Shown one piece after another: positions 622 through 55,187 of a stretch of 64,000 bases of DNA (position 1 is its first letter; every line of letters begins with the position of its first letter). The translations under genes and the position numbers were made by a program. The notes under the pieces were generated by a model. The model had not been told where the DNA came from and did not search any database. It saw only the letters and a list, made by a program, of their open reading frames with translations. Origin of the DNA: Neolewinella aurantiaca (lineage in GTDB: Bacteria > Bacteroidota > Bacteroidia > Chitinophagales > Saprospiraceae); contig NZ_VOXD01000026.1 in NCBI RefSeq assembly GCF_008014675.1, positions 1 to 64,000 of the forward strand, given 5' to 3'.

Positions 622-650
622 AACCTTCTTTGCACCTGCGTCCGCGCCGC
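622..650 (-). repeat. Dispersed GCAGGTGCA element, copy 1
   Basis: This is a near-consensus copy of the element whose core is GGCGCGGNCGCAGGTGCA. Read on the minus strand, the core is followed by AAGAAGGTT. It lies in the gene-free left margin, about 300 bp beyond the 3' end of glutamine synthetase. Confidence 0.75.
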
Positions 651-778
651 TGCCTTATGTTACGCTATCCTGATGATTATTGGAATATTAATGGTTGCCA
701 GCAGATATGGCGTTATGGGTGTCTGATTCTGGCTCCCTGGCCGCGCGAAATCGTATACCATATATATAAGGTCTCTCA

Positions 779-817
779 GAAAACAAAAAACCGGGCCGCC
801 AATTAAGGCGACCCGGG
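779..817 (-). terminator. Rho-independent terminator, minus strand
   Basis: A GC-rich stem (791-800 with 807-816, one bulge) is followed on the minus strand by a T-rich run (790-781). It lies about 130 bp beyond the glutamine synthetase stop codon and is the best candidate for the end of that transcript. Confidence 0.65.
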
Positions 818-906
818 CAAATCCATGTCCCGCGGACCGCGCGGAACCTGAGCTGATTTAACCTTCTTACATACTTTGCAGGAAGCTTAAATCCTCTTTC
901 ATGGGA

Positions 907-939
907 TTGCAGGAGTTGCAAAGTCTGCAACTCCTGCAA
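907..939 (-). terminator. Perfect 14-bp stem-loop behind the GS gene
   Basis: TTGCAGGAGTTGCA at 907-920 is exactly complementary to 926-939, with a 5-base loop. It starts only 5 bases after the stop codon of glutamine synthetase. It has no T run, so it is more likely an mRNA 3'-end stabiliser or processing structure than a complete terminator. Confidence 0.5.
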
Positions 940-944
940 CACAT

Positions 945-1961
945 TTATACAGAAACCGGCTTAACGGTTTTCACGATCCGTGCAGCAACCTTGTAGGGGT
1001 CTGCAGCGGAGTTAGGGCGACGGTCTTCCAACCAACCTTTCCAGCCGCGCTCAACGGTAGCAACCGGAATACGGATGGAGGCACCACGGTCAGAGATACC
1101 GTAGCTGAACTCGTGAATGCTCTGTGTCTCGTGAAGACCAGTGAGACGGAGGTGGTTATCGTGGCCGTAAACCTCGATGTGTTCCTTAGTGACAGGGCGG
1201 AATGCTTCACATACCTTCTCATAGTCTTCCTTCTTTCCACTTTCGCGGAGGAAAGAGTTGGAGAAGTTAGCGTGCATACCGGAACCGTTCCAATCACCGG
1301 GTACAGGCTTACATTCGTAGTTGATGACGACACCGTACTGCTCGGCCACGCGGTCGAGAAGGAAACGTGCGAGCCAGATCTGGTCACCTGCTTCTTTTGC
1401 GCCTTTGGCGAAGGTCTGGAATTCCCACTGACCAGGAGCAACTTCGCAGTTGATACCTTCTACGGTCAGGCCTGCGTCGAGACAAGCATCAAGGTGCTCC
1501 TCGATGATCTCGCGGCCGTATGCGTTGGCTGCGCCAACGGAACAGTAGTACTGGCCCTGGGGAGCGGGGTCGCTGCCGTCTGCGGGGAAGCCGAGAGGCT
1601 TATTGGTCTCGGGGTCCCAGAGGAAGTATTCCTGCTCGAATCCAAACCAGAAGTCTTTGTCCTCATCCTCGATGGTAGCACGAGCGTTGGATGGGTGCGG
1701 GGTGCCGTCGGCACTGAGCACCTCGGTAAGAACGATGTAGCCGTTCTTGCGCTGAGGGTCGGTGATGATGGCAACGGGCTTGAGCAGACAGTCGGAGCTG
1801 CCGCCGGAAGCCTGTTGGGTAGAAGATCCGTCGAAGGACCACATCGGACAGTCTTCGAGCTTACCGCTGAAGTCTTCGATGATCTGGGTTTTGCAGCGCA
1901 TCTGCTGCATGGGCTCGGAACCGTCGAGCCAAACGTACTGTAGCTTATGTTTAGTAGCCAT
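945..1961 (-). CDS. glnA: Glutamine synthetase, type II (GSII)
   Basis: This is the cytosolic enzyme joining ammonium to glutamate with ATP. At 338 residues it has the size of the short GSII class (eukaryote and glnII type), not the roughly 470-residue GSI or 730-residue GSIII. Visible signatures are the N-terminal WSFDGSST segment, the EQEYFLWD active-site motif, NGSGMHANFS for ATP and glutamate binding, and the C-terminal RGASIRIP and DRRPNSAADPY segments. It is the last gene of a minus-strand nitrogen set (P-II, amtB, porin, glnA), so ammonium uptake, sensing and assimilation are encoded together. The upstream gap to the porin is 169 bp and contains two inverted copies of the dispersed repeat, so it may have its own promoter. 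GSII lacks the adenylylation control of GSI, so regulation is probably transcriptional. Confidence 0.95.
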   Translation of the reverse strand: MATKHKLQYVWLDGSEPMQQMRCKTQIIEDFSGKLEDCPMWSFDGSSTQQASGGSSDCLLKPVAIITDPQRKNGYIVLTEVLSADGTPHPSNARATIEDEDKDFWFGFEQEYFLWDPETNKPLGFPADGSDPAPQGQYYCSVGAANAYGREIIEEHLDACLDAGLTVEGINCEVAPGQWEFQTFAKGAKEAGDQIWLARFLLDRVAEQYGVVINYECKPVPGDWNGSGMHANFSNSFLRESGKKEDYEKVCEAFRPVTKEHIEVYGHDNHLRLTGLHETQSIHEFSYGISDRGASIRIPVATVERGWKGWLEDRRPNSAADPYKVAARIVKTVKPVSV

Positions 1962-2007
1962 AGTTAGAAAGGAGTTTGTGAGGTTAAATCAGAAATAAAT
2001 GAAATTT

Positions 2008-2036
2008 GGGCGAGGCCGCAGGTGCAAGGTGAGTTT
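2008..2036 (+). repeat. Dispersed GCAGGTGCA element, copy 2
   Basis: This copy lies 47 bp upstream of the glutamine synthetase start. It faces copy 3 (2087-2117) as an inverted pair about 50 bp apart, so a transcript through this gap could fold into a long stem. Confidence 0.75.
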
Positions 2037-2086
2037 TGAGAGGAGAATAGTCATTAAGGGAAGTTTCCTTTGCTGAGTTCTGCCTT

Positions 2087-2117
2087 AAACCGTTGCCTTG
2101 CACCCGCATCCGTGCCC
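2087..2117 (-). repeat. Dispersed GCAGGTGCA element, copy 3 (diverged)
   Basis: This inverted partner of copy 2 has mismatches in the core (GCGGGTGCA). It lies 14 bp beyond the stop codon of the porin gene. Confidence 0.6.
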
Positions 2118-2130
2118 GCTATTGTCGTTT

Positions 2131-3258
2131 TTAGAAAGTGTACACAGCAGCGAGGATGAAAGCAGCTACGCTGTTATCATCTGCGGAAGGGAAAATGCCA
2201 CTGGGCTGAGAATCAAATACGACCTGATCGTTACCAGAGTCGAAGCGTACTTCAGGGATGATGGTGAGGGGACCAACCTTATAGTTGCCACTGAGAGTGA
2301 AAGCAGTGACAGAAGGAGCGTCTCCCGTAACTCCTTCGGCTAGTTTACCCGTGAAGTACTCACCGCGGAAACCGAGGTCGAAGCCATCAGAAATTCCAAC
2401 GGTTGCGTAAAGTGCAGCTCCGGTGAAACCGTCAACAGTGCTGCCATCAACACTGCTTGTTTTGTCGGATACGTTCAGGCCGAGCATGAACGTTTCGCTG
2501 ACTTCGTAAGTTGCGGTCAGGTCAACCTGGAAACCAGACTGATCGAGATCGTCGGTTTCACCTTCAGCCTCCTTGCCGGCAAGGAAATTGAGGTAAGCTG
2601 CGAGGTTACCCGTTTCGGCGCTGAGCTGAGCACCAATGTGCTTACCTTCTACGTCGTCGAACTTGCTATCGGTGTCATTAAAAACACCAACCATTGCACC
2701 AAAGCCCTCAGCGATGGCGAAATCAGCTTTGATACCCGTGTGGAAGAAAGGGCCGTTGCTGAAAAGGTAGCTCGTAGAGTAGTTTACATTGATCGGGTCA
2801 ATGACTTCGTATCCGACGAAGGTACCAAAGTTACCGAGGGTGAAGGTAACGAAATCGGAAGGTGCGTAAGTTACGAACAACTGCTGAACTGCAGGAACGT
2901 CTCCGTTGGCTGCCTCTGCACGGGGCCCGAAACCAAGCTGAGCGACGAAGCTCACCTTTTCGAATTCCTGAGCGAGGGTAACATTAGCCATACCGATGGT
3001 GAACTCGTTAGCCCGGTCAGTGAAACTGGTTGGGAAAACGAGTGGTAGTTCGCTATCAGCTCCTTCGGTGAAGTTTTGCTGGTAGTAAACGTCAGCAAAT
3101 CCACTGATTTGGAGACCTGGCGTTTCTTCTTCCTCTTTTTCTTCGTCAGCGGGTGCAGTCACCGGGTCTGCTGCGGGCAGATCGGCGCTCACCTGAGCGA
3201 AGAGAGTAGTGGAAGAAAGGAGCATGAATGCGAGCGTAAATTTGAAAATTGTTTTCAT
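2131..3258 (-). CDS. Outer-membrane beta-barrel porin, OmpL/BBP2-like
   Basis: This is a predicted outer-membrane channel of 375 residues. A signal peptide occupies about residues 1-21 (MKTIFKFTLAFMLLSSTTLF, cleavage after AQ). A short acidic Pro/Glu-rich linker follows, then alternating amphipathic strands starting with ISGFADVYYQQNF. The protein ends in an aromatic residue (AAVYTF), as outer-membrane barrels do. The overall look is that of the putative beta-barrel porin-2 family common in Bacteroidota. It sits between amtB and glutamine synthetase on the same strand, so I infer that it admits ammonium or another small nitrogen compound to the periplasm. The substrate is not visible in the sequence. 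The start codon is the one that opens the signal peptide. Confidence 0.8.
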   Translation of the reverse strand: MKTIFKFTLAFMLLSSTTLFAQVSADLPAADPVTAPADEEKEEEETPGLQISGFADVYYQQNFTEGADSELPLVFPTSFTDRANEFTIGMANVTLAQEFEKVSFVAQLGFGPRAEAANGDVPAVQQLFVTYAPSDFVTFTLGNFGTFVGYEVIDPINVNYSTSYLFSNGPFFHTGIKADFAIAEGFGAMVGVFNDTDSKFDDVEGKHIGAQLSAETGNLAAYLNFLAGKEAEGETDDLDQSGFQVDLTATYEVSETFMLGLNVSDKTSSVDGSTVDGFTGAALYATVGISDGFDLGFRGEYFTGKLAEGVTGDAPSVTAFTLSGNYKVGPLTIIPEVRFDSGNDQVVFDSQPSGIFPSADDNSVAAFILAAVYTF

Positions 3259-3335
3259 CGTTGGAGTAAAGTTTAATATCCGTGGTGATAGTGAGGTGAT
3301 ATTTCATTCCGGATATGGACTTAACCCCTGGGTAA

Positions 3336-3366
3336 TTGGCAAATTGAATTCGCTGTCATACCTTTG
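3336..3366 (+). promoter_or_regulatory. Plus-strand promoter in the porin-amtB gap
   Basis: TACCTTTG at 3359-3366 matches the Bacteroidota -7 box. TTG at 3336-3338 stands 20 bases upstream, the expected spacing for the -33 element. It points away from both flanking genes, which are on the minus strand, and towards the terminator at 3456-3492. Confidence 0.45.
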
Positions 3367-3369
3367 ATT

Positions 3370-3492
3370 CTTTACCAGTTCTCCCTTCCGGATAAGAAGA
3401 GAGAATTGATAAGAGAAAGATCCTTAGTTGGGGGCGGTTCAGTCCGTTTCCGGCGGGCCCGTTTGACGTTGCAGCGTCGGCGGGCCTTTTTT
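3370..3492 (+). ncRNA. Candidate small RNA, about 120 nt
   Basis: A promoter-like pair (3336-3366) and a rho-independent terminator (3456-3492) on the plus strand bracket about 120 bases with no plausible reading frame. Both flanking genes (porin and amtB) run on the other strand. Such a promoter-terminator pair with no gene is the usual sequence sign of a trans-acting small RNA. No known RNA family was recognised, and the exact ends are inferred. Confidence 0.35.
3456..3492 (+). terminator. Rho-independent terminator, plus strand
   Basis: The outer stem GGCCCG/CGGGCC (3456-3461 with 3481-3486) and inner stem GACG/CGTC (3465-3468 with 3475-3478) are followed by six T (3487-3492). The T run fixes the direction as plus, although no plus-strand gene lies upstream. 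Confidence 0.6.
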
Positions 3493-3506
3493 GTAGTGAT
3501 GGTTTC

Positions 3507-3552
3507 GGCCCGTTAGCAGATCGAGGCATTTACCTCTGCTGGCTAACGGGCC
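3507..3552 (-). terminator. Stem-loop behind amtB
   Basis: GGCCCGTTAGC (3507-3517) pairs exactly with 3542-3552, and a weaker inner stem lies between. It starts 12 bp past the amtB stop. It lacks a T run on the minus strand, so it may be an mRNA 3' stabiliser rather than a strong terminator. Confidence 0.5.
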
Positions 3553-3563
3553 AAAATCACATT

Positions 3564-8184: not shown

Positions 8185-8213
8185 AGGGCGCTGACGCAGG
8201 TGCAGGCAAGGTT
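8185..8213 (+). repeat. Dispersed GCAGGTGCA element, copy 4
   Basis: This is the left half of the head-to-head pair. Its core reads GCTGACGCAGGTGCA, so the GC block differs slightly from consensus. Confidence 0.7.
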
Positions 8214-8221: not shown

Positions 8222-8249
8222 ACGTTCTTTGCACCTGCGGCCCCGCCCT
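8222..8249 (-). repeat. Dispersed GCAGGTGCA element, copy 5
   Basis: This is the right half of the pair, inverted, with the exact core CGCAGGTGCAAAGAA on the minus strand. Confidence 0.75.
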
Positions 8250-18003: not shown

Positions 18004-18519
18004 TTAGGGCTGTTCTCCGAACAGTTCCCGCATCCGGGCGACGTTGCGCTCCGGAATTGCATCCACATCCGGGTAAGCCGCTACGGCATCTGCAACACTG
18101 CCCGTGCGTAGCAATTGCAGAACGGGATATGGTGCGCGGTTGGTGAGGTTACCGGGATCGTCTTGGGCTACGCCCTCGAAGCAATAATCGGGATGGAAGT
18201 GCGCCAGCTGGACCAGTTCAATAGCACCGCTGTTAGCAAGCGCGTCTTCGAAGGTGTAGACGAAATCGAGGAAGGTTTCAAAATCGGCGAGTAGCTCGCC
18301 GGGAAAAACAAGGAGACTGGTCTCCAGGGTATCCGGCTCTTTGTCCAACAAACTCTGCACCTGCGCCAGCGCCGCATAGAAAGCCTCCTCGAAATCATTC
18401 GATTTGATTTCCTTTGCTCCTACCCTGCCCTCGTTGAACGGCAATGCCGCAAAGGGGCACAGCGCGTGGCGAATGACGAAATCTTTTACCCAATCAAGGG
18501 TTTCTGCGGTTGGCCTCAT
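18004..18519 (-). CDS. DUF1415 family protein
   Basis: This 171-residue cytosolic protein has no known function. It fits the DUF1415 family by the early VIRHALCPFA motif (the family's conserved Cys-Pro), the central ETSLLVFP segment, and HFHPDYCFEGVAQDDPGNLT, followed by NRAPYPVLQLLR near the end. Its start codon overlaps the stop of the pseudouridine synthase gene by four bases (ATGA), so the two are translationally coupled. A weak match to the dispersed repeat core lies inside it (18350-18376). Confidence 0.85.
   Translation of the reverse strand: MRPTAETLDWVKDFVIRHALCPFAALPFNEGRVGAKEIKSNDFEEAFYAALAQVQSLLDKEPDTLETSLLVFPGELLADFETFLDFVYTFEDALANSGAIELVQLAHFHPDYCFEGVAQDDPGNLTNRAPYPVLQLLRTGSVADAVAAYPDVDAIPERNVARMRELFGEQP
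18350..18376 (-). repeat. Dispersed element, weak copy 7 inside the DUF1415 gene
   Basis: On the minus strand the sequence GGCGCTGGCGCAGGTGCAGA matches most of the consensus core. It encodes part of AALAQVQSL, which suits the family helix, so this could be chance. Confidence 0.35.
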
Positions 18520-24206: not shown

Positions 24207-24238
24207 AAAACTTTCCCCTGCACCCTGCGTGCGCGCCC
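24207..24238 (-). repeat. Dispersed GCAGGTGCA element, copy 9
   Basis: This copy has one extra base in the core (CGCAGGGTGCAGG on the minus strand). It ends 14 bp before the ccmE start, so it would lie in the 5' leader of that mRNA. Confidence 0.65.
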
Positions 24239-24707: not shown

Positions 24708-24755
24708 GACTATTTGAATACCTGATCGTTCGACTTTTTTGACTTTAGACTAATG
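24708..24755 (+). repeat. 8-bp-phased GACTAnnn array, locus B
   Basis: Reading in steps of eight gives GACTATTT, GAATACCT, GATCGTTC, GACTTTTT, TGACTTTA, GACTAATG. The last unit contains the ccmF start codon, so changes in unit number would move the promoter or leader of ccmF. Confidence 0.4.
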
Positions 24756-27608
24756 GAGGAAATTACATACATCAACGAGCACCTCGGCCCGCGCCATATT
24801 GGCCATTTTGCCCTGCTGCTCGCGTTTTTTGCCGCGATTCTCGGTATGGTCAGCTACTTTATGGCCACCCACCACCGGGCCGAAAAGCTCCGTAGTGGCA
24901 AGTGGCAGCGCCTGGGGCAGTTGAGTTTCCTCTTCCACGGCGCAGCCGTGTTTACCGTAATTGGTTGCATCTTTTACGCGATGCTCAACCAGTATTACGA
25001 GTACCAGTACGTAAGCGCTCACGTAAGTGCAGACCTTCAGCAACGGTATATTTTCAGTGCATTCTGGGAAGGGCAGGAAGGTTCCTTTCTGCTGTGGATG
25101 TTCTGGCACGTCATTTTAGGCTACGTACTCATGGTTACGGCGCGCCGCTGGGAAAGCCCGGTAATGACCACGCTTTGTGCCGTTCAGGTAGTGATCGTCT
25201 CCATGGTACTGGGGGTTCATTTTGGTTTTGGTGACTGGGTGATCAAACTCGGTTCCAGCCCAATGCTACTGCTGCGCGAAACAATCAATGCCCCCATTTT
25301 CCAGCAAGCCGACTACGTTGCGCTACTGAAGGGTAACGGGCTCAACCCCAGCCTTCAGAACTACTGGATGACCATCCACCCTCCTACCCTTTTCCTGGGT
25401 TTTGCGAGCACCGTGGTACCTTTCTGCTTCGCCGTTGCCGGGCTGTGGACGGGCGAGCACAAAGCCTGGCTAAAGCCAGCTTTACGCTGGTCTTTGTTCA
25501 GCGCGGGCATCCTTGGTATCGGCATCCTGATGGGTGCAGCCTGGGCCTACGAGGCGCTCAACTTTGGCGGTTACTGGGCGTGGGATCCGGTTGAGAACAC
25601 AAGCCTTGTACCGTGGCTTCTGCTCGTTGCCGGCCTGCACACCAACCTTGTCAGCCGGGCCACCGGCCAGGGAATCCGGGCAACCTACCTGTTCTACCTC
25701 TTCACTTTCGTGATGATCGTTTACAGTACTTTCCTCACCCGTTCGGGTATTTTGGGAGACACCTCTGTACACGCCTTCACCGAGATGGGCCTCGAAGCAC
25801 AGTTGCTCTTCTTCCTCGGGTTCTTCGGGATCGGCAGTGCTGCACTCATGGTTTGGCGCTGGCGGAGCATTCCCGTTCCGGAAAAAGAAGAAAGCCTCAG
25901 CAGCCGCGAGTTCTGGATGTTCATCGGTAGCCTGGTGCTGTTGATGTCAGCCGTACTTATCACGGCTTCAACGTCGCTTCCGGTGTACAACGAAATCCGG
26001 GAATACCTCAACCCCGTTTTCGACGGCGTTACCCTCACTGACCCCGAAGCGCACCACAACCGCTTCCAGATCTGGATCGGTATCTTCGTCGGTATTCTTT
26101 CCGGAATTGCTCACTTTTTGCGGTGGCGCGAGAAAGACTTCTCGAAGCACTCACGGTCTTTCCTGTTGCACACACTGGGCGCGGTCGCAGGTGCAGTGGT
26201 TTGTTCATGGCTAACCCTCCTCTGGATCGATGCCGGCCCGTGGCAGTTCAAGCTTATGCTCTTCAGCGGCTGGTTTGCCATCTGGACGAATGTGGACTAC
26301 CTCATTCGGTTTGCTTTCAAAGACGTCAAGGTTTTCGGTTCCGGACTGAGCCACATCGGCTTCGGTCTGATGCTGCTCGGCATTCTTGCCTCCGGAGCAA
26401 ACAAGCGTGTTATCTCCCAGAATCAGTTCCTGATGGAAGGCCTCAGCGACGACGAAGAACTCGAGCGTACCACCGTCATCCTGATCAAGGACGAGCCCAT
26501 GGTGATGGAAAACTACGAACTCACCCTGCGGGGAGACACCATCGATGGCTTTAACCGCACCTATTTCGTAGACTATAAGCGCAAAGACGCCGCCGGGCGG
26601 GTTGTCGAAGAATTCCAACTCGAGCCAAACCTCCTTTACGACAAGACTTTCGAGAAGATCGCAATCACCAACCCCAGTACCAAACACTATTGGGACAAAG
26701 ACATCTTCACCGTAATCATGAGTCTTCCGCTGGAAGAGCAAAGCCTCGAGGAAAAACGCAAAAAAGAAGACAGCCTGAAGTACCACGTCGTTTCACTCAC
26801 GCCCGGTGAAATGATCGACTTCAAGGACACCCTGAAGATCAGTCAGCCAGACACCTTCATGGTACGTGACTATCGGGTATCGCTCGAGAATTTCGCGAGA
26901 GTACCTGTCCACCCTGATTATGAGCCCGAACCGAAAGACATCGGCGTGAGCGCTACGGTGGCCATCTCCCGCGGAAAAGCAGACACGGTTTACCGCGAGC
27001 AAATCGCTCTGGTTCTGCGCGAGGGTCTTCTTTACCACTACCCCGCTCAGATCAACGAAATCAGCACACGCCTGAAGATCGACGAGGACATCTTTGAGCA
27101 ACTCCTTACTCCCGAGGACCAGCTCGACTACAAAGAGTTCGTTGTTAAGCCCGGAAGTTCGTTCAGGCTGGGCGACAAGGAACTTACCTTCCGCAACTTC
27201 AAGCCTCAGCCTGAGGTAGACCACTATTTGCCGCAGGAAGGCGACATTGCGGTAAGCGCCCAGCTGGACATCACCGACGCAGCGGGTAATACCGGAACGA
27301 TGGAGCCTGTCTTCATTATTCGCGACAAAACCCCCAGCCGCATTCGCGACGAGCACCGCGAGTTCGGCCTGTTCTCTAATCTGGTGAACCTCAACCCCGA
27401 GACGAGCGAAGCGACGTTGCTTATCGCTCAAGCACCTCCGCGTGATGCTGTTCGGGTTCCTATTGCTGTTGCGACCAAGAGCTCCCGCTCCGATTGGCTG
27501 GCCCTTCAGGCCATTGAGTTTCCGGGTATCAACCTGTTCTGGATTGGCTGCATCTCAATGATGATGGGGCTGCTGATTTCGATGGTGCTGCGGTTGCGGA
27601 TGCGGTAG
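24753..27608 (+). CDS. ccmF: Haem lyase CcmF (cytochrome c biogenesis, CcsA/CcmF family)
   Basis: This large inner-membrane protein of 951 residues joins haem to apocytochrome c. About a dozen helices fill residues 15-560. The periplasmic WWD haem-handling motif is YWAWDPVENTSLVPWLLLVA at about residue 270, and conserved histidines lie in TIHPPTLFLGFAS and nearby loops. A soluble periplasmic region of about 350 residues follows (about 570-915), longer than in proteobacteria. A final helix ends the protein (LFWIGCISMMMGLLISMVLR). It follows ccmE and shares its strand. Copy 10 of the dispersed repeat lies within the frame at residues about 475-484 (GAVAGAVV), in a membrane segment. Confidence 0.93.
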   Translation: MEEITYINEHLGPRHIGHFALLLAFFAAILGMVSYFMATHHRAEKLRSGKWQRLGQLSFLFHGAAVFTVIGCIFYAMLNQYYEYQYVSAHVSADLQQRYIFSAFWEGQEGSFLLWMFWHVILGYVLMVTARRWESPVMTTLCAVQVVIVSMVLGVHFGFGDWVIKLGSSPMLLLRETINAPIFQQADYVALLKGNGLNPSLQNYWMTIHPPTLFLGFASTVVPFCFAVAGLWTGEHKAWLKPALRWSLFSAGILGIGILMGAAWAYEALNFGGYWAWDPVENTSLVPWLLLVAGLHTNLVSRATGQGIRATYLFYLFTFVMIVYSTFLTRSGILGDTSVHAFTEMGLEAQLLFFLGFFGIGSAALMVWRWRSIPVPEKEESLSSREFWMFIGSLVLLMSAVLITASTSLPVYNEIREYLNPVFDGVTLTDPEAHHNRFQIWIGIFVGILSGIAHFLRWREKDFSKHSRSFLLHTLGAVAGAVVCSWLTLLWIDAGPWQFKLMLFSGWFAIWTNVDYLIRFAFKDVKVFGSGLSHIGFGLMLLGILASGANKRVISQNQFLMEGLSDDEELERTTVILIKDEPMVMENYELTLRGDTIDGFNRTYFVDYKRKDAAGRVVEEFQLEPNLLYDKTFEKIAITNPSTKHYWDKDIFTVIMSLPLEEQSLEEKRKKEDSLKYHVVSLTPGEMIDFKDTLKISQPDTFMVRDYRVSLENFARVPVHPDYEPEPKDIGVSATVAISRGKADTVYREQIALVLREGLLYHYPAQINEISTRLKIDEDIFEQLLTPEDQLDYKEFVVKPGSSFRLGDKELTFRNFKPQPEVDHYLPQEGDIAVSAQLDITDAAGNTGTMEPVFIIRDKTPSRIRDEHREFGLFSNLVNLNPETSEATLLIAQAPPRDAVRVPIAVATKSSRSDWLALQAIEFPGINLFWIGCISMMMGLLISMVLRLRMR
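26177..26202 (+). repeat. Dispersed element, copy 10, inside ccmF
   Basis: The full core GGGCGCGGTCGCAGGTGCAG lies in frame and reads Gly-Ala-Val-Ala-Gly-Ala. The hydrophobic reading suits the membrane helix it falls in. Confidence 0.6.
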
Positions 27609-30542: not shown

Positions 30543-30725
30543 CAACTCGGTCTCTAAACTCGACAGGCGAACTTTTTTGCTTCTCAGGTTGAGTAAATGA
30601 CTCGTGCGGCAGTATCTAAACAGGCACTGACAATTTATCCAAATCTTCATAAGCAAAAAAGAATTCGACTGGCGAGGTTAACACAAAGAAAACCTCGACC
30701 AGAGCATCAAAGGTACAACGTCCCT

Positions 30726-34421: not shown

Positions 34422-37400
34422 TCAGCGATCCGGCTTCCTCATTGTTTCCAGCGGCGCGGACGCAGGTGCAGTGGTGGTTAATGGGCAAATGAACAGCGTA
34501 ACCCGGGTACCCTGCAGGCTCCCATCTTCCGACAGGAGTGACTCTATCTCCATACCGGAGGTATGGCTTCGCCCCCGGCCCAGCATTTTAAGACGCCGGC
34601 GGGTTATGTCCATTCCTAAAGATTCAGCCTTATCGGCTTCAGCGGGCTCATAGCCCTTGCCATTGTCCTCGATTACTACCATTAGTTGTTCTGCTGTCCC
34701 GGTGAAATGTACCGATATTTTGCCACCTTCCTTTTTGCCCTGAAGGCCATGAATGATCGCGTTCTCCACAAAAGGCTGGATTAGTAGCGGTGGCAGCACG
34801 ATGTTCTCCTTGGGCAACGATGGATCTATCTCCAGGGTATACGTGAACCCTTCCTTGAAGCGTAGCTTCTCGAGGCCCAGATAGGTTTCCAGCATCATCT
34901 GCTCTTCACCAAGGTGGTGCCGCCCGTCGACCGAGGAGCGCAACGTCTGCCGGATCACCCGCGCAAAACGCGACAGGTAAGTGGCGGCCTGCTTTGCGTC
35001 GTTTTCAAGGACAAAGTTTTGGATAGAATTCAAAGCGTTGAATACGAAGTGGGGATTCATTTGGGCATGAAGTGCAGCATGCTCCAGTTTCGTGATCTGA
35101 AAAAGCAGGTCTTGCTCTCTTCTCCTACGCTGCTCCCGGAACAGAAAGTATGCGCTCAACCCTGCACCCGCCAGCAGAATAGCCCCCAAAATAGCCCAGG
35201 TCGTCTCATACCACGGAGTAGCAACCCTGATGTCCCTGATCACGCCGGGGCTCCAGATGCCGTCCTGGTTCCGGCTTTGTACTTCGAAACGATAAGTGCC
35301 GGGACTCAGGTTGGGATAATTCACGGTTCTTTCATTGCTGTACTGCCAGTTCGCAGCGTCATTCAAACGGTACCGGTACAGCACTTCATCGCCCAGTACG
35401 AAGTTGATGGTTCCAAAACTGATGCTCACATCCTGGGGCCCCGAGGGCAGGTCATATACGTTAGTGTCCGGCAGAGGCTTCCCGTTAAGCATAACGGTAC
35501 GGATCACGGGCCGGGAAGACTGACTTATCAGCGGAGGCTCGTTGAACCGCACTACCCCGGCGCTGGTTGCCAGCCACACTTCTTCCCCGTAGGTATCTGT
35601 TTGGTACACCTCGTTAGTGGGTAATCCGTGTTCCGGCCGGAAGGTACGAAGCTGATACTTGCCCCCATCTTCCGGAATGTAGAGTTTGCTCAGTCCGTTC
35701 AGAGAGCTTACCCATATAACGCCCGAATCATCTATGTGAACATGACGAATCATATCCGAAGCTAATCCGTTACTTTCCCTAATGAAGTAGGTCGTATCAG
35801 GGCTGACATAAATCAGCCCGTCTCCTCTGGTGCCGAACAACAAATCGTCGTTGCCCAGCCCTTTAATGGCTACCACCCGTTTAGACAGTTCGGGAATCCC
35901 CAGATTATTCGGAACGAGGCTACCGTCCTCTCTTTGTTCCATAAGTCCGCTTAAGGTCCCAACTAACGGTCTTCCGTCAGGATGCAGACCGTATACATGA
36001 GCGTTGCCGGGCAACACTCCGAATTCTGATTGCTCTTCGATGATTTCCTCCAGGTCCATATTGAGCACTACGAGGCCGGAAATATTAGAGCCAAAAATTT
36101 TGCGTGTATTTCCACCGCCTGGCTCATTAAAATTCTTGATCAGTAAAGGTCTTCCGGATTTGAAGTAAAACTTCTTGACGTCAGCCGCCCTCAGCTTCCT
36201 CCCTTCAGCCACAGGATGCTCAAATGCATAGTATGGTGTCAGCATCAGGGAGCTTATCGGATCGTAATGTAAATCAAAGAGGCGCCCCGGGGCGGTAAGC
36301 TCAGCATCCTCTACCCGAGCGAGCTGCTCGTCATTCTTGCTGTAGTGGAAAAAGCCTCCGTTGCTATAACCGACGTAAAAATCTTCGGGGCCGGTTGCTG
36401 CGATGGCTATAGCCTTATTATTGTCGGTTGCATCTTCTCTTTTGTACAGTAATTGTTTAGGATACGGACAGTAGAAAATGCCAGCATCAAGGCTGGTGAC
36501 CCAGAATCCTCCGTTTTTGTCTATAATAGCCGACGACAAAGACCGCCCCACCAGCTGCTGAGAAAAACGGGGAGACGCTCCTCCTTTTCGGAAGTCGATT
36601 CCCAACAGTCCGCCACCCCGATCCAGAAGCCCCCAATAAGTGTCAGGATAAAAACCAGGCATGAAATAATTCAACCCGTTTGAAGAAATGACGAATTCAT
36701 GCTTTGTCTTTCCAGCAGCATCCAGTGCGTACAATTTCCGAACACACGAAATCAGGTATTCCTTGCGCCCTCCTTCATCTACGAATGCTCCGGAGAAGTA
36801 ACTTCTGTGAGCGTGTAGCTTTTCAGACTGAATGGTCCCGATCCGTTTACTTGCGTATGGATCGATTATACTCACGCGGGTACTGTCACGGACCCTTGAA
36901 ACAGGGCTCTGGTAGAAAGCATGGGGTGGTGAGGTAGTGTTTTGGTTTTTTTTCCCTTCGCGTTCGTACAGATAAACATCATTGCTTTCAGGGGTTACCA
37001 GCCATTCTGTAGTCCCGGAAGAATCCAGCTTGAGGAGGCCGGCATTTTTGAAGCTGACAATAAATTTTTTCTCCGGGGTTACATCAACCAGCACTCCGAG
37101 ATGCTTAGACTTTTTGATGTGCTCAAGAACATTGTTGTGCTCAAAGGGATGGAAAGCACCGTGCTCGAAGAAGTAAATACCTCCGGAGTAAGTAGATATC
37201 CAGATTTTGCCGTCATCGGCTTCAACGATGCCAAAAATCACCATGTCTTCAAGGCCATCATCGGCGTCGAAAACTTCGAATTCGTAGCCATCAAAACGTG
37301 CGACGCCGTTGTCTGTCCCGATCCAGAGGTAACCAGACCGGTCTTCGAGGATAGTATAGGTTTCGGAGCTTGGTAAGCCCTGGTCTGTATTATACTGTCT

Positions 37401-40818: not shown

Positions 40819-40880
40819 ACCGGATCTGACACCTGCGTCGGGCAATATGGCGCGAACGCAGGTGCAAAACAAGGTCCGGT
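40819..40880 (+). other. Hairpin around repeat copy 15 in the sdhA-sdhB gap
   Basis: ACCGGA (40819-40824) pairs with TCCGGT (40875-40880), and CACCTGCG (about 40830-40837) pairs with CGCAGGTG (about 40857-40864) in the repeat. It sits between two operon genes and may adjust relative sdhA and sdhB expression. Confidence 0.5.
40849..40875 (+). repeat. Dispersed GCAGGTGCA element, copy 15
   Basis: The core reads GGCGCGAACGCAGGTGCAAA, then ACAAGGT. A shortened inverted partner (CACCTGCGTCGGG, from 40830) lies just before it. Confidence 0.8.
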
Positions 40881-46553: not shown

Positions 46554-47948
46554 ATGCAAACTGTATTCCTCGCCGACTTCGGCTTGTTCCTTGGCCGTTT
46601 CCATCCCTTGCTGGTTCATCTGCCTATTGGCTTTTTGCTCCTGGCGGTATTATTGGAATGGTGGCCCGGCGATAAGGTCCGGCCCGCCATCCGCGTAAGC
46701 TGGGCGGTTGGTGCTCTCTCTGCGATTGCAGCTGCGTTTTGCGGTTGGTTACTTTCGGGTGAGAGCGGCGGCGGCGACGCGCTGTTCTGGCACAAATGGC
46801 TCGGAATAAGCGTAGCGGTTCTGGCCGTTGCGGGCACCTACCTCACCTGGAACGGCGGTAAAATCGCTAAAGGCATTGGCTTTGTGGTGGCCGGTTTGCT
46901 ATCCGTAGCTGGTCACCAGGGAGGCAACCTGACCCACGGAGAAGACTACCTCTTCGAACATGCTCCTGCAGTGGTCCAAACGATTGCCGGTCACGAGCCC
47001 AAAGCATCCGCCAGCCAAGACTGGAGCACCGTGAACGTCGACAGCATCAACATTTATTCTTCCTTCCTGCAACCGGCACTAAACAAATCCTGCACCAAAT
47101 GCCACAACGCCGGAAAACAGAACGGAGGTCTGCGCCTCGACGCGCCTTCTTACGCCTTCGCCGGTGGCGACGGTGGGGAAATCATTCATCCCGGCGACCC
47201 GTTGGGGAGCTCCTGGTATAAGCGCATCACCCTGCCGCGCAACAACGTAAAAGCCATGCCTCCGCAAGGAACTCCTCTCGATTTTTCTCAGGTGAGACTA
47301 CTTGAATTCTGGATTGCCACAGGAGCAGACACCCTGGCGTTACTTGACCCGAAAACCACACCAGAGGACATCAAAATGCTGCTGGCCCGAGACTACGGCC
47401 TTGACCTCAGTCCGAAGTTGTTCGTAGAAAAGATCATTGCACCCGCGCTCAGCGCCCAAGACATCGAAGCCCTTTCCGCAATAAACTGGTCCATTACCCC
47501 ACTTGTTCCCGGTGGTCCGGCGCTGGAAGTAAAGCCCAAACCCGGAAAATCCATCGATGCCGCCTCGCTGGCAAAACTCGCCGAACTGGCCCCCACTCAG
47601 GTCGCCTACCTTAGCCTCGATCAACTTCCGCTGACCGACAACGACCTCACGCCGTTGGCCAACTTCAAAAACCTGAACCGCCTGCGCCTGAACGGGACGA
47701 AAGTCACCGCCAAGACCGTCGGGATACTCAGTAAATTGCCCCACCTGGAAAGCCTGAATCTCTACGGTACAGAGGTCGACGACGAAGTGTTTGCCCATCT
47801 CCAACTTTTCCCTTCTTTGAAGCGTCTATACCTATGGCAGACAAAAGTAACTCCCGAAGCTACTGAGGCTTACGCTTCGGCAAACCCCACCGTTAGTGTA
47901 GATACGGGATTCACTTTTGCGCCGGTTTCCGAGCAAAAGAGTAAATAA
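46554..47948 (+). CDS. Membrane-anchored c-type cytochrome with DUF2231-like and leucine-rich regions
   Basis: This 464-residue protein begins with a DUF2231-like membrane module of about four helices (FHPLLVHLPIGFLLLAVLLE, then WAVGALSAIAAAFCGWLL, WLGISVAVLAVAGTYLTW, IGFVVAGLLSVAGHQGG). A periplasmic cytochrome c domain follows with one CTKCH motif (about residue 182) and Met-containing AMPPQGTPLDF, as in the planctomycete-type domain. A leucine-rich region lies at about residues 340-440 (LTDNDLTPLANFKNLNRLRL, then LPHLESLNLYGTEVDDEV). The downstream Tat-type propeller gene starts immediately after its stop codon, so the two are an operon. Function is unknown, and a redox-coupled sensor or dehydrogenase partner is possible. 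Confidence 0.8.
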   Translation: MQTVFLADFGLFLGRFHPLLVHLPIGFLLLAVLLEWWPGDKVRPAIRVSWAVGALSAIAAAFCGWLLSGESGGGDALFWHKWLGISVAVLAVAGTYLTWNGGKIAKGIGFVVAGLLSVAGHQGGNLTHGEDYLFEHAPAVVQTIAGHEPKASASQDWSTVNVDSINIYSSFLQPALNKSCTKCHNAGKQNGGLRLDAPSYAFAGGDGGEIIHPGDPLGSSWYKRITLPRNNVKAMPPQGTPLDFSQVRLLEFWIATGADTLALLDPKTTPEDIKMLLARDYGLDLSPKLFVEKIIAPALSAQDIEALSAINWSITPLVPGGPALEVKPKPGKSIDAASLAKLAELAPTQVAYLSLDQLPLTDNDLTPLANFKNLNRLRLNGTKVTAKTVGILSKLPHLESLNLYGTEVDDEVFAHLQLFPSLKRLYLWQTKVTPEATEAYASANPTVSVDTGFTFAPVSEQKSK

Positions 47949-49989: not shown

Positions 49990-49991
49990 AT

Positions 49992-50780: not shown

Positions 50781-50783
50781 GGC

Positions 50784-50791: not shown

Positions 50792-50797
50792 ACTGAG

Positions 50798-51514
50798 TTA
50801 GCGGCTAAATTGCGTGAGCATCTTCCGGCCGAGGTAGAAAGTCATCAGGTTGGCCCGGTCTCTTCCGGCCGGATGGGTTTGTGTCGCACCACTAAACGCC
50901 AACGCTCCGCCATCCGCCAGGATAAAGCGCGATGCCTGGTTTATTTCAGCGATGGAGTACCCGGCCAGCACCATCAGGTCGGCCGCCCGGTGGTCGGCCG
51001 CAATTTCCTCCAACTGGCGGAGAGTGAGTTGGCCGAGGAGGTGGCGCTCGGCGTCGGTCATCGGGTCATTCTTCAGGAGAGCCGGGTTTCGGTGATCTGC
51101 ATGGGCAAGTTCGTGGGCCAGCAGCAGAGCGAGAGCCGGCTCGTTGTCGCTCAGGCGATCCCACGCGGTAACACTGAGCCAGATCACCCGGCTGGCGGTG
51201 CAGGTCATTGCGTTGATGGCGCGGTAACCGCGCCGGTCCTGCATCAACTCGATGGAATAGGAATCCGGATCGTTGCCGGCCGCAAGAGCCAGGTCATGAA
51301 ACACCCATTGCACCTGCCCCCGGGCCGTATGAAACACCGGCTCGAAGTTGGGGTCCAGCGCACAACCGGATGAAGTGGAGGCCAGGTCGGAAACCGCAGC
51401 GTAGGCACTAATTCCCCTGGCAGGAACATTCGGGGGAGGATGACGGTCCGACAAACGAAAAAACGACAGGTAAGCCGCCGCAAGAACGGAAAGAAGACGA
51501 AGGAAGGTTTTCAT
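50798..51514 (-). CDS. M48-type zinc metalloprotease, exported
   Basis: This 238-residue protein has a signal peptide or anchor (MKTFLRLLSVLAAAYLSFF). The HELAH zinc motif is in LALLLAHELAHADHRNPALL at about residue 135. A distal Glu candidate is in LRQLEEIAADHRAADLMVLA. This fits the short M48-like periplasmic proteases. It is the first gene of a minus-strand group with the methyltransferase and deacetylase-like genes. The weak repeat-like GGGGGCAGGTGCAA at 51309-51326 was considered and not counted. Confidence 0.78.
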   Translation of the reverse strand: MKTFLRLLSVLAAAYLSFFRLSDRHPPPNVPARGISAYAAVSDLASTSSGCALDPNFEPVFHTARGQVQWVFHDLALAAGNDPDSYSIELMQDRRGYRAINAMTCTASRVIWLSVTAWDRLSDNEPALALLLAHELAHADHRNPALLKNDPMTDAERHLLGQLTLRQLEEIAADHRAADLMVLAGYSIAEINQASRFILADGGALAFSGATQTHPAGRDRANLMTFYLGRKMLTQFSR

Positions 51515-51724
51515 GTTATGGTTTTTGGTAAATACACATCAGCGAATTGCGTTCGCTGCTCAAAGCATTCTCTAAACCCACGGCTTCGTCTTAAAAATTG
51601 CGAGTCGTTCGTTAAGCATACGATAAAACCTAAAGTGTCAGGCCCGCCACGCATTAATTCTCTAAGGGGTTCTTAAACTATCCAACCCTACCAACTCTCG
51701 GGCCGGTACAATTGTCTTTAATTC

Positions 51725-52321: not shown

Positions 52322-52403
52322 AAGCTGTGAACCAAACAGCGTCAGGGCTGTAATATGGTGGTGTGGCGGATAGATCGCCACGCAATCATTTATCCATACA
52401 ACT

Positions 52404-52703
52404 ATGTCTAAGCAACTCTACCTGATCGCTAAATTCGAACTTGACGACGCCGATAATTTCGCGCCAATCTTTGCGAAACACGCCAAAGACAGCCGCCGCA
52501 AAGAAGGCTGTTTGTTTTTCTACCTGATCAGAGACCGGGAAGACCCCAGCAAATTTGCCACCATGGAATGCTGGGATACCTACGCCGACTTCGAAGCGCA
52601 CGTCGCGGACGAGGAGCATGCCGCCTTCTTCAAACAGATTAAGCCACTTTTCCGCAAAGACCCGGTAGTGACCGAGGCGGACCTCGTAATGGGGATGGAA
52701 TAA
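52404..52703 (+). CDS. Antibiotic biosynthesis monooxygenase (ABM) family protein
   Basis: This 99-residue dimeric alpha-beta barrel protein fits the putative quinol monooxygenase group. The signature is DADNFAPIFAKHAKDSRRKE, followed by GCLFFYLIRDREDPSKFATM and ECWDTYADFEAHVADEEHAA. Enzymes of this fold act on quinols or similar small molecules without a cofactor, and the natural substrate is unknown. It is a single gene with its own hairpin at 52709-52750. Confidence 0.85.
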   Translation: MSKQLYLIAKFELDDADNFAPIFAKHAKDSRRKEGCLFFYLIRDREDPSKFATMECWDTYADFEAHVADEEHAAFFKQIKPLFRKDPVVTEADLVMGME

Positions 52704-52708
52704 TGTGA

Positions 52709-52750
52709 CTGGCCCGGCCACCTTTGGTTAATTCCCGGCGGCCGGGCCAG
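52709..52750 (+). terminator. Terminator-like hairpin behind the ABM gene
   Basis: CTGGCCCGGCC (52709-52719) pairs exactly with GGCCGGGCCAG (52740-52750). No T run follows. Confidence 0.5.
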
Positions 52751-52867
52751 GTTCAGTCTGATTCTCTTCTTTTTAAGTCGTTGCAACCGGGCATCCGGTA
52801 CGGGCATAAAGGCACTCCGTAGAGAGCGATTGAACCAATAATTCCTGCTAAGATGCTTTTTCAATAA

Positions 52868-52915
52868 GACTATCTGACGGCAAGACTACAAGACTATCTG
52901 ACGACTTAACTATCT
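52868..52915 (+). repeat. 8-bp-phased GACTAnnn array, locus C
   Basis: In 8-base steps from 52868 the units are GACTATCT, GACGGCAA, GACTACAA, GACTATCT, GACGACTT, AACTATCT. The register is exact for six units and merges into the promoter-like TATCTTCG box of pheS. Confidence 0.5.
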
Positions 52916-52917
52916 TC
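52910..52917 (+). promoter_or_regulatory. -7-like box of pheS
   Basis: TATCTTCG, one base off TAnnTTTG, ends 8 bases before the pheS ATG. Transcription would start next to the start codon. Confidence 0.35.
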
Positions 52918-52925
52918 GCGCCAAT

Positions 52926-53984
52926 ATGGCAAATGAAGTATTCAACCGCGTAGCGGCCCTCATCACTGAAATAGAAAACGCTACGGCGGAGACTCCCGAA
53001 GCGGTGGAAGCTTTCCGTATCAGGTACCTTGGCAGCAAGAACATCCTCAAGCCCCTCATGGGCGAGATGCGCAACATCCCCAACGAGCAAAAGCGCGACT
53101 TCGGTCAGTTGGTCAATAAAGCGAAGGAAACAGCCCAGTCCAAATTCGATGCCCTGCAGGCAGCGACACAGGACAATGCGGGCGCGGACGCAGGTGCAAA
53201 GTTTGACCTGACGGCCCCGGCAGAACCCATGCCACTGGGTTCGCGCCACCCTATCGCCCTGACGATGCGGCGCATCATCTCGATCTTCGAGCGTATCGGC
53301 TTCACCGTAGCAGAAGGCCCCGAAGTGGAAGACGACTGGCACAACTTTACCGCCATGAACACCCCGGAGGATCACCCCGCCCGGGACATGCAGGATACCT
53401 TCTACGTCGCCACCGGTATGCCCGCCGGGCCAGACAACGCAGACATGCTGCTGCGGACCCACACCAGTTCCGTTCAGGCCCGTACGATGGAAACCTCTAA
53501 ACCGCCGATCCGCATCATCGCCCCGGGCCGTGTTTACCGCAACGAAACCATCAGCGCCCGCAGCCACGCCCAATTCCACCAGGTCGAAGGGCTCTACATC
53601 GCCGAAAAATGCAGCTTTGCGGACATGAAAGCCACGCTCCTTCACTTCGCCCGCGAGATGTACGGCGACAAGACGAAAATCCGCCTCCGCCCCAGCTACT
53701 TCCCTTTCACCGAGCCCAGCGCCGAAATGGACATCTGGTGGGGCCTGGAGTCTGAGCACGACTACCGCATCACAAAAGGTACCGGCTGGCTGGAAATCCT
53801 CGGTTGTGGTATGGTTGACCCCGAAGTACTCAAAAACTGTGGTATCGACCCTGAAAAGTATACCGGTTATGCATTCGGAATGGGCATCGAGCGCCAGGCA
53901 ATGCTTCTTTATAACATCACCGACATCCGGCTGATGTTCGAGAACGACGTACGGTTCCTCAAGCAATTCTCCGGAGTGATCTGA
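52926..53984 (+). CDS. pheS: Phenylalanine--tRNA ligase alpha subunit
   Basis: This 352-residue class II synthetase subunit has an N-terminal coiled-coil that contacts tRNA (about residues 1-84). The catalytic domain follows: FTVAEGPEVEDDWHNFTAMN, PARDMQDTFYVATGMPAG, the HTSSVQARTM motif, APGRVYRNETISARSHAQFH, and the motif 3 region GMGIERQAMLLYNITDIRLM. The beta subunit (pheT) is not adjacent. Residues about 86-92 (GADAGAK) come from a dispersed repeat copy and lie in the linker between coiled-coil and catalytic domain. A phased repeat array and a promoter-like box precede the ATG. Confidence 0.95.
   Translation: MANEVFNRVAALITEIENATAETPEAVEAFRIRYLGSKNILKPLMGEMRNIPNEQKRDFGQLVNKAKETAQSKFDALQAATQDNAGADAGAKFDLTAPAEPMPLGSRHPIALTMRRIISIFERIGFTVAEGPEVEDDWHNFTAMNTPEDHPARDMQDTFYVATGMPAGPDNADMLLRTHTSSVQARTMETSKPPIRIIAPGRVYRNETISARSHAQFHQVEGLYIAEKCSFADMKATLLHFAREMYGDKTKIRLRPSYFPFTEPSAEMDIWWGLESEHDYRITKGTGWLEILGCGMVDPEVLKNCGIDPEKYTGYAFGMGIERQAMLLYNITDIRLMFENDVRFLKQFSGVI
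53180..53204 (+). repeat. Dispersed element, copy 18, inside pheS
   Basis: The complete core GGGCGCGGACGCAGGTGCAA is in frame and encodes Gly-Ala-Asp-Ala-Gly-Ala at residues about 86-91, in the flexible linker. Confidence 0.75.
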
Positions 53985-54120
53985 TCGTGGGTCCACCAGC
54001 TGGTTGATGGCTGGGAAGAGCAATACTTGAAGACAATTCGGATTCACCGAAAACAGGACCGGAAACAAGTGGCAGGTTGCCAGAAGAAACCCTTTGGCAT
54101 GGTGGAACATTGCTAATAAT

Positions 54121-54150
54121 AAGCTTTCTTTGCACCTGCGTACCGCGCCC
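54121..54150 (-). repeat. Dispersed GCAGGTGCA element, copy 19
   Basis: The core on the minus strand is GGGCGCGGTACGCAGGTGCA, then AAGAAAGCTT. It lies 53 bp upstream of corA. Confidence 0.75.
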
Positions 54151-54203
54151 GTATCCCTGATCAAAGGCCGGCACGGATTATTGAAGAACCAAACCATCTC
54201 CCT

Positions 54204-55160
54204 ATGATCAGCTACTACGCCTCCCGCAATGGCCGCCTGGAAGAGATGGACTCCCTCGTTGAAGAAGGTTGCTGGATCTCCCTGACGCCGCCTTTCGAGG
54301 CCGACGAACTGGCCAGGGTTGCCAATGATTTCGACCTACCGCCCGATTTCCTCACCGACCCGCTGGATACCGACGAACGTTCGCGCTACGAGCGCGAAGA
54401 CGATGCCCGGCTGATCGTTCTCAACACCCCGCTCCTTTCGGCCGGAGACGGGGACAACGACGGTATTTACATTACCGCTCCGATTGGTCTTATCCTAGTA
54501 GAAGATCACCTCATCACCGTCACCTCCTCGGCCAGCCACCCGGTGCTGAAACTCTTCACGGAAAATAAGGTACGCAATGTAGACACCGCCCGCCGGCAGC
54601 ACTTCGTGCTGCGTATTTTTGAACAGACGGTGTACCGCTACCTCACCTGCCTCAAGCGCCTCAACGTGAAGCGCAACATGATCGAACAGGAACTCTACGA
54701 AAGCAGTCAGAACAAAGAGCTGAAGCAGCTGCTCAGCATTGAGAAATCACTGGTTTACTTCATCAATGCGCTCAACGGTAACGAACTGCTGAAAATGAAG
54801 ATGAAGCGGACCGATTTCCTCGCCATTCGCCACGATGAGGATTTGGCAGATTTGTTCGAAGACATCATCATCGACAATGGCCAGGCCCTGGAGATGGCAA
54901 ACATCTACACCAATATCCTCAACGGAACGATGTCGGCTTTCGGCTCGATCATTTCCAACAACCTCAACATCACGATCCAGCGCCTGACCCTCATCACCAT
55001 CATCCTTACCGTCCCGATGGTGATCGCCAGCTTCTTCGGCATGAACGTCACGGTCCCCTACCAGTCTGGTAGCGTCTGGGCCTTCTTCGGCATCATCCTC
55101 ATCTCCGTTCTCATGAGCGTGGCTGTCATCGCCTACTTCCGGCGAAAACGGATGTTTTAG
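54204..55160 (+). CDS. corA: CorA-family magnesium/divalent cation transporter
   Basis: This 318-residue inner-membrane channel has a long cytoplasmic N-terminal part (about 1-250) with the stalk helix EQELYESSQNKELKQLLSIE. Two C-terminal helices follow (LTLITIILTVPMVIASFFGM and VWAFFGIILISVLMSVAVIA). The signature GMN follows the first helix in FFGMNVTVPYQ, and the basic end (RRKRMF) is typical. The stop codon merges with repeat copy 20. Confidence 0.93.
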   Translation: MISYYASRNGRLEEMDSLVEEGCWISLTPPFEADELARVANDFDLPPDFLTDPLDTDERSRYEREDDARLIVLNTPLLSAGDGDNDGIYITAPIGLILVEDHLITVTSSASHPVLKLFTENKVRNVDTARRQHFVLRIFEQTVYRYLTCLKRLNVKRNMIEQELYESSQNKELKQLLSIEKSLVYFINALNGNELLKMKMKRTDFLAIRHDEDLADLFEDIIIDNGQALEMANIYTNILNGTMSAFGSIISNNLNITIQRLTLITIILTVPMVIASFFGMNVTVPYQSGSVWAFFGIILISVLMSVAVIAYFRRKRMF

Positions 55161-55187
55161 GGCGCGGCCGCAGGTGTAGATTCCGGG
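55160..55187 (+). repeat. Dispersed GCAGGTGCA element, copy 20
   Basis: GGGCGCGGCCGCAGGTGTAG begins on the last base of the corA stop codon. One core base differs (GTGTA for GTGCA). Confidence 0.7.

Follow-up and report, generated by a model that had tools for sequence, protein, structure and literature searches.

The window analyzed here, a 64-kb stretch of the Neolewinella aurantiaca genome (contig NZ_VOXD01000026.1, positions 1 to 64,000), contains a CcmF-like gene, an sdhA-like gene and a histidine-kinase gene; scattered between and within genes are copies of one dispersed element. The element consists of the core GGCGCGGNCGCAGGTGCA and a weaker tail; it is non-palindromic and holds ∼30 bits of information, as estimated from logo and matrix. 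With a matrix threshold of 14 bits we counted 22 copies in the window, 12 on the forward and 10 on the reverse strand. An earlier note on the window, made from its letters, had reported ∼20 copies; all 20 listed positions were recovered by the matrix, including the weak one at 18350, and two copies were added to the list. The copies listed at 24207, 30515, 49026 and 54121 turned out to be variants that either contain one extra base or are diverged in their 5′ half. The stretch from 55.2 to 64 kb is free of copies at at least 14 bits, as the note had it.

In a logo built from ∼135 copies, CGCAGGTGCA is nearly invariant and is preceded by a strong GGCGCGGN; the sequence upstream is T-rich, and the tail reads AAG...GGTT followed by purines to about +37. 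The motif thus extends over ∼28–38 bases, of which the core takes 18. A 50-column matrix (∼32 bits) produced a two-peaked distribution of scores: 161 matches had at least 20 bits and just 27 more were found down to 6 bits; in this 6–20 bit range the same matrix gave 9 matches in a first-order null sequence and 10 in the reversed control.

The core was found 19 times in the window with up to 3 mismatches, compared with a mean of 0.22 in 100 shuffles. The earlier note had proposed a genome scan against a control, and the scan showed strong enrichment: in the whole genome (6.0 Mb, 104 contigs) we found 764 forward and 757 reverse matches to the core (1,521 in total, up to 2 mismatches), while the reversed word gave 0 and 2. 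Copies of the full motif scoring at least 14 bits numbered 309 in 864 kb (reversed control, 3), which scales to ∼2,100 per genome. Thus, as with the DNA uptake sequence (DUS) and the uptake signal sequence (USS), one non-palindromic word is hugely over-represented, equally on both strands. These counts exclude a product of chance or of codon bias; the latter is also at odds with the enrichment of copies between genes and with similar sense and antisense counts. Judging by listed entries of the open literature on Lewinella transformation, Neolewinella repeats, uptake sequences or competence in Bacteroidota, USS spacing, and Chi or AddAB, we recognised no description of the element.

Placement was determined in 464 kb with a simple codon-usage gene caller, which called 81% of the sequence coding. 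Of 165 matrix copies, 102 were intergenic, 59 coding (33 sense and 26 antisense) and 4 overlapped gene ends. A role as terminator was rejected: 12 of 99 placed intergenic copies lay between convergent genes, matching the 13% share of this class in intergenic bases. A replication-polarity site was ruled out as well, since in all six sampled contigs the two strands were in balance. In short tail-to-tail pairs the periodicity of spacing was not above random, and the sequences inside short inverted pairs, judged by eye, appear mutually unrelated.

We think that the most informative feature, one absent from the earlier note, is the orientation-specific spacing of the copies. Adjacent copies alternate: in 864 kb, 246 of 303 neighbours had opposite orientation, a number that never rose above 186 when strands were shuffled 2,000 times. 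Pair counts by strand and distance explain the alternation, because same-strand copies exclude each other. In the N. aurantiaca genome no same-strand pair was closer than 300 bp (16.1 expected); we saw 2 pairs at 0.3–1 kb (37.4 expected), 8 at 1–2 kb (53.2 expected) and 32 at 2–3 kb (52.8 expected), with a ratio of 0.88–1.2 beyond 3 kb. Altogether 10 same-strand pairs were found below 2 kb versus 107 expected; the exclusion acts within 2–3 kb. For opposite-strand pairs more than 300 bp apart the observed to expected ratio was near 1; head-to-head (−+) pairs were slightly low at 0.3–2 kb (36 versus 47.3 expected), and tail-to-tail pairs below 300 bp were in excess (36 versus 8.3 expected).

Twelve variants with a one-base indel, found afterwards, follow the same rule. 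Not one of the 12 had a same-strand neighbour at 1.5 kb or less, where 51% would be expected at random, and the median distance to the nearest same-strand copy was 3.25 kb; 50% were within 1.5 kb of an opposite-strand copy. Same-strand spacing in the genome has a mean of 5.5 kb and a coefficient of variation (CV) of 0.45. Exclusion-only simulations calibrated at short range gave CVs of 0.52 and 0.50 versus 0.44 observed with the variants included, and of 200 runs 0 and 2 came down to the observed value; intervals >10 kb made up 3.2% of those observed and 6.0–6.4% of those simulated. As exclusion-only models give about twice the long gaps, it seems that, besides same-strand exclusion, long gaps are filled; the effect is moderate.

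The rule was seen in congeners as well. Nine were sampled and eight used, as G004 yielded no usable matrix. Pooled same-strand pairs 60–2000 bp apart numbered 7 versus 64.6 expected and opposite-strand pairs 78 versus 70.7; a single same-strand pair of G002, its copies separated by 30 bp, falls below the 60-bp limit and is not counted. Taken individually, G009 (2 versus 4.6 expected) and G014 (0 versus 4.1) are weak for same-strand exclusion. The congener G011 has swapped the whole word for an unrelated one and keeps the same spacing (same-strand pairs, 1 versus 11.7 expected; opposite-strand pairs, 13 versus 13.1); what is conserved may therefore be the spacing rule and not the sequence.

Within the genus the element exists in dialects, as DUS and USS do. 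The N. aurantiaca word occurs in 10 to 1,744 copies in 20 congeners (among them Neolewinella litorea, Lewinella sp. W8 and Lewinella sp. JB7); outside the genus, 39 genomes have a background level of 0–16 copies. Related spellings emerged from de novo counting of words and from matrices in G002, G005, G017, G009 and G014. A one-base-longer core, GGCGNCGGNGCGCAGGT, is used in G001 and G007 (668 and 470 copies with up to 1 mismatch); the other 19 genus genomes have 3 to 243 copies of it, N. aurantiaca 69. The unrelated word of G011, CATTGCTACTTTGNNAGCCAAA, occurs there in 446 + 435 copies (up to 3 mismatches), dispersed over the genome (e.g. L041, L042, L099–L103), with no more than one copy in each of the other 35 genomes searched.

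Several candidate dialects were dropped. The top word of G021 was driven by codons or repeats; the matrices from both seeds of G004 and from the second seed of G009 drifted to codon periodicity and were discarded; a local tandem array accounted for the top words of the first sample from G001. An array of ∼93-bp units carrying a GGAGCTCCAG-type word lies in G001 at L034, ∼3.7–5.5 kb. In samples of 100–140 kb from other genera (G023, G035 and G025) nothing rose above a control simulated from G023 only; the G022 and G034 samples were smaller, too short to judge a dialect.

Orthologous sites show how copies change. The copy at 26178 lies within ccmF, an orthologue of which was found in 15 of 16 congeners searched; all 15 protein alignments were gap-free over 40 residues. 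The core is exact in four orthologues (G008, G005, G010 and G006) and has up to 2 mismatches in three (G018, G002 and G019); more distant species use other codons, the G014 sequence being close to G014's own dialect. Scoring with the N. aurantiaca matrix detected this copy in 7 of the 9 nearer congeners. Of the same 9 loci, 5 have the minus-strand copy upstream of ccmF at about the same place, and one locus does not reach far enough to include it. The copy 3′ of the sdhA-like gene was at the same place in all four same-dialect congeners compared; none was visible in more distant congeners such as G013, G014, G016 and G020.

Over six sites within alignments of 70–81% identity, 14 of 15 comparisons with same-dialect congeners showed a scored copy at the corresponding position, with 17% mismatch in the element versus 30% in the flanks. 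Gap columns (1 to 12) fell within the element in 8 of the 15 alignments: six of these eight belonged to two intergenic sites, one to an unclassified site and one to ccmF in G018, where 2 gap columns in the DNA alignment correspond to zero in the protein alignment. No clean insertion was seen between species at the ccmF site and the six same-dialect sites. Placement of copies in coding sequence (59 of 165) and substitution rather than insertion at the in-gene site (gap-free in 15 of 15) are what one sees for DUS and USS.

We also observed the element in viral sequences. An exact scan of IMG/VR returned 59 stretches with the element; many were single chance-like matches, and 25 held a copy of 28–41 bits on the full matrix. 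Exact matches to the G011 and G001 spellings numbered 1 and 0. Among 26 viral loci compared, 23 formed one sequence-linked group, with the records G061 and G062 standing apart. The main group is tailed phage, as indicated by a tape-measure protein (ten viral proteins searched); phage support is weaker for G061 (a collagen-repeat protein matching tail-fibre families, and the IMG/VR listing), and the viral label of G062 comes from its IMG/VR listing. Scans of whole records with up to 3 mismatches gave 8 copies in 38.7 kb for G060, 11 in 44.6 kb for G061 and 8 in 30.9 kb for G062 (reversed-word controls 0, 2 and 3), i.e. a copy every ∼4–5 kb in the three records, which stand behind L303, L286 and L321; five shorter or poorer records of the eight scanned had 1 to 4 copies each. 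In the three records together, 1 of 21 same-strand intervals was <2 kb versus 4.7 expected. These three are possibly phages of this genus. Among named phages we found none with the element, the one match being at chance level.

Sequence-tagged self-DNA has been described for Neisseriaceae and Pasteurellaceae. The reading that we favour, with a probability of ∼0.38, takes the element for a tag of self-DNA that is spread over Neolewinella genomes and read on one strand. In anatomy and dialects the element resembles DUS. Like the DUS of Neisseriaceae it has very many non-palindromic copies, equally on both strands, in genes and between them, with an excess of tail-to-tail pairs and with dialects within the genus; like the USS of Pasteurellaceae it has a core with a weaker flanking tail, near-perfect copies dominate, and phage carries it too (HP1 in the case of USS).

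The strand-specific spacing implies strand-specific reading: because same-strand exclusion is independent of the other strand, a copy would be recognised from its own strand or direction and from no other. With a double-stranded DNA receptor, a second copy would be redundant in any orientation, and the P. multocida sample described below behaves so. Two processes expose one strand or one direction, namely single-strand import or loading in transformation and end-resection of the RecBCD/AddAB type. One could suggest the following way of working, similar to DUS and USS except that a copy would count solely for the DNA strand carrying it. Some 2,000 copies would be kept in place, in the dialect of the species, by selection or biased transfer. 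A protein would recognise the 18-base core with the tail, as the ∼30-bit logo suggests; recognition would take place on a single strand or in one direction of travel, for instance on strands under import or being loaded for recombination. A strand fragment of ∼3–6 kb would need one copy; a second same-strand copy would be redundant and decay, a strand without a copy would be disadvantaged, and copies on the other strand would be irrelevant, all of which fits the spacing. Phages passing through the hosts would acquire the tag, which might account for the viral copies.

A number of observations weigh against this reading. The single-strand step is one we infer solely from spacing. At the ccmF site no copy was scored with the N. 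aurantiaca matrix in G014 and G015, so that congeners with a different dialect do not share the position. We know of no receptor for the element, and in the literature we found no report of competence for this genus. ComEC is present, yet it is also found in 10 of 14 control genomes. The PilB/PilT family (PF00437) gave only partial matches of 19–25.5 bits in 20 of 21 genus genomes, N. aurantiaca included (11 congeners just reach the 24.9-bit cut-off; one incomplete genome had no match), compared with 410–423 bits for two further genomes from the order. The partial matches span ∼25–100 of 370 positions, several of them in frames of ∼950 aa, and probably represent other ATPases. As these matches are marginal and partial, the genus seems to lack the customary route through a type IV pilus, judging by the PF00437 search, in which secretin and pilins were not included.

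The known uptake sequences, moreover, do not show the spacing rule in the partial genomes that served as control samples (200 kb of N. gonorrhoeae, 150 kb of P. multocida and 150 kb of E. coli). For gonococcal DUS (161 copies), 58 of 120 neighbours beyond 60 bp were opposite and the same-strand CV was 1.13. For P. multocida USS (58 copies) the figures were 20 of 49 and 1.25, with no alternation outside close pairs; a mild depletion at 0.3–2 kb affected both orientations alike (same-strand 12 versus 19.4, opposite 8 versus 17.8). The Haemophilus phage HP1 carries 17 USS words in 32 kb with 9 of 16 neighbours opposite, and no spacing rule. In H. influenzae, orientation is reported to be without effect on uptake (PMC1939737), and the part seen of the work of Mora and colleagues has USS orientation counting only for overlapping pairs (PMC7811141).

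Unlike these spacing-indifferent sequences, the element shows same-strand exclusion with independent strands; it is also longer and more informative than DUS, and its genus, which belongs to Bacteroidota, gave no convincing PilB/PilT match. The earlier note had listed a DNA-uptake-type sequence among its possibilities. This agrees with the anatomy, copy number, coding and intergenic placement, tail-to-tail pairs and dialects; it does not agree with the strand-specific spacing or with the marginal pilus ATPase matches. Because of spacing and the type IV pilus, one measured and one genetic feature, we do not file the element as a member of DUS/USS.

Two PLSDB records of the control species are filed as plasmids and look chromosomal: NZ_CP119140.1 (N. 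gonorrhoeae, judged by its size of 2.17 Mb) and NZ_CP113523.1 (P. multocida, judged by the dnaA, rpoD and ribosomal genes in its 260 kb).

The single-strand self tag ranks slightly ahead on account of the length of the motif, its dialects and its USS-like anatomy; a long Chi-like site follows closely because the Chi model predicts the spacing most directly. In the latter case a helicase-nuclease entering from a DNA end would read the element in one orientation, stop degrading and start recombination. Breaks may occur anywhere, hence sites would be needed in both orientations, with even spacing within each and no dependence between the two, which directly predicts strand-independent, gap-filling spacing; phages would carry the element to survive the nuclease, and the viral copies in the three records, spaced by ∼4–5 kb, show the same trend. 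Chi is a polar site, and the orientation-specific spacing of the element would be compatible with polar action, though no proof of it; per-strand spacing is similar (mean same-strand spacing of 5.5 kb in the E. coli sample, equal to that of the element), and the N. aurantiaca genome has one gene with a PDDEXK_1 domain (AddB/RecB-type nuclease) in an open frame of 1,106 aa. We nevertheless consider a Chi-like site, the main rival, somewhat less probable than the self tag. Known Chi words have 5–8 bases, compared with ∼30 bits over ∼28–38 bases here; E. coli Chi is biased in orientation (34 forward and 9 reverse) and is not evenly spaced (CV 1.28), with 11 of 41 same-strand intervals <2 kb versus 12.9 expected, i.e. 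no exclusion, while the element is balanced in each contig sampled. Nor is Chi known for such variability of dialects within a genus. The viral copies do not separate uptake tags from Chi-like sites, since HP1 carries its 17 USS words.

Two further explanations are improbable, to a similar degree. One is a site at which some other polar DNA motor or nucleoid organiser (e.g. a loop extruder) binds or stops, read in one orientation and needed on both strands at intervals; the chromosome-organisation site listed in the earlier note would be of this type. In its favour, spacing is even and strand-independent, and long gaps are rarer than with exclusion alone (3.2% versus 6.0–6.4%); presence in viral contigs of 31–45 kb, rapid change of dialect and the lack of orientation bias along contigs would be unexpected. 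The other is an ordinary DUS recognised in double-stranded form, its spacing produced by an unrelated process such as deletion between nearby direct repeats, known to be distance dependent and orientation specific; it would purge same-orientation neighbours and spare inverted ones. Nearly all features but the spacing would fit. However, exclusion-only models leave too many long gaps, the rule is equally strong for the unrelated word of G011 (1 versus 11.7), another repeat family of the same genome with 18 identical bases keeps direct copies 190–366 bp apart (L275), and the rule was not seen in the DUS or USS samples.

The weakest explanation is a mobile repeat spreading by insertion, such as the half of a repetitive extragenic palindrome (REP) or bacterial interspersed mosaic element (BIME) suggested in the earlier note; it is most improbable. 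Like the element, REP/BIME families do consist of short copies, hundreds to thousands of them, dispersed in either orientation; short inverted pairs are numerous here, and the genome has four Y1 transposase genes resembling REP-associated tyrosine transposases (RAYT). Yet the element is non-palindromic and found in genes, the interiors of its inverted pairs seem unrelated, and the four RAYT-like loci are not flanked by palindromic copies of it, containing 7 copies of at least 10 bits in 22.5 kb, about the genome average. As the compared sites keep their place in same-dialect congeners and the ccmF copy, aligned gap-free with orthologues lacking the element, arose by substitution, we reject both a REP and any other kind of insert.

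If the single-strand self-tag reading holds, Bacteroidota would provide an independent case of self-DNA tagging, with its own dialect series and one full word replacement. It is possible, on balance not probable, that we are dealing with an entirely new kind of genome-marking system: a long, fast-evolving tag, present about every 5 kb per strand, read strand-wise and shared with phages. Strand-specific spacing would be a quantitative clue to mechanism, as double-strand recognition should space the two orientations alike and single-strand or polar recognition should not. A second kind of lineage would then be available for testing drive, mate recognition and recombination as origins of uptake sequences, with the viral copies as natural test molecules.

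Table 1. Copies of the element in the 64-kb window
Feature	Position	Strand	Evidence
Core, 34.7 bits	631..648	-	core match + matrix
Core, 42.2 bits; tail-to-tail with copy at 2099	2009..2026	+	core match + matrix
Core, 25.1 bits; tail-to-tail with copy at 2009	2099..2116	-	core match + matrix
Core, 34.2 bits; tail-to-tail with copy at 8230	8187..8204	+	core match + matrix
Core, 41.8 bits; tail-to-tail with copy at 8187	8230..8247	-	core match + matrix
Core, 39.0 bits	15520..15537	+	core match + matrix
Core, 32.4 bits; within predicted gene	18356..18373	-	core match + matrix
Core, 34.7 bits	22038..22055	+	core match + matrix
Variant, one extra base (GGCGCGCACGCAGGGTGCA), 19.2 bits; upstream of ccmF	24220..24237	-	matrix
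Core in CcmF-like gene (24753-27608), encodes GAVAGA	26178..26195	+	matrix
Variant, diverged 5′ half, 17.4 bits	30514..30531	+	matrix
Core, 43.7 bits	30738..30755	-	core match + matrix
Core, 35.4 bits; antisense near 3′ end of histidine-kinase gene	34453..34470	+	matrix
Core, 36.6 bits	37873..37890	-	core match + matrix
Core, 35.0 bits; directly 3′ of sdhA-like gene	40849..40866	+	matrix
Core, 37.2 bits	46312..46329	+	core match + matrix
Borderline match, 14.3 bits; absent from earlier list	47438..47455	-	matrix
Variant, one extra spacer base, 22.6 bits	49028..49045	+	matrix
Core, 24.3 bits; absent from earlier list	51309..51326	-	core match + matrix
Core, 31.0 bits; within predicted gene	53181..53198	+	core match + matrix
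Variant, one extra spacer base, 20.9 bits	54131..54148	-	matrix
Core, 29.9 bits; immediately 3′ of stop codon	55161..55178	+	core match + matrix

A separate repeat of ∼120 bp with inverted arms, ACTCGACAGGCGAACTTTTTTGCTT ... AGCAAAAAAGAATTCGACTGGCGAG, lies in the window at 30557–30677. It resembles a BIME or a miniature inverted-repeat transposable element (MITE), although its arms had no exact counterpart at any of the four RAYT-like loci; arm matches in 864 kb numbered 13 and 14 (up to 4 mismatches). Other copies are at L009 (∼9.5 kb), L257 (∼17.3 kb), L271 (∼5.4 kb) and L273 (∼0.1 kb), and a dense array occupies 14.7–16.2 kb of L275.

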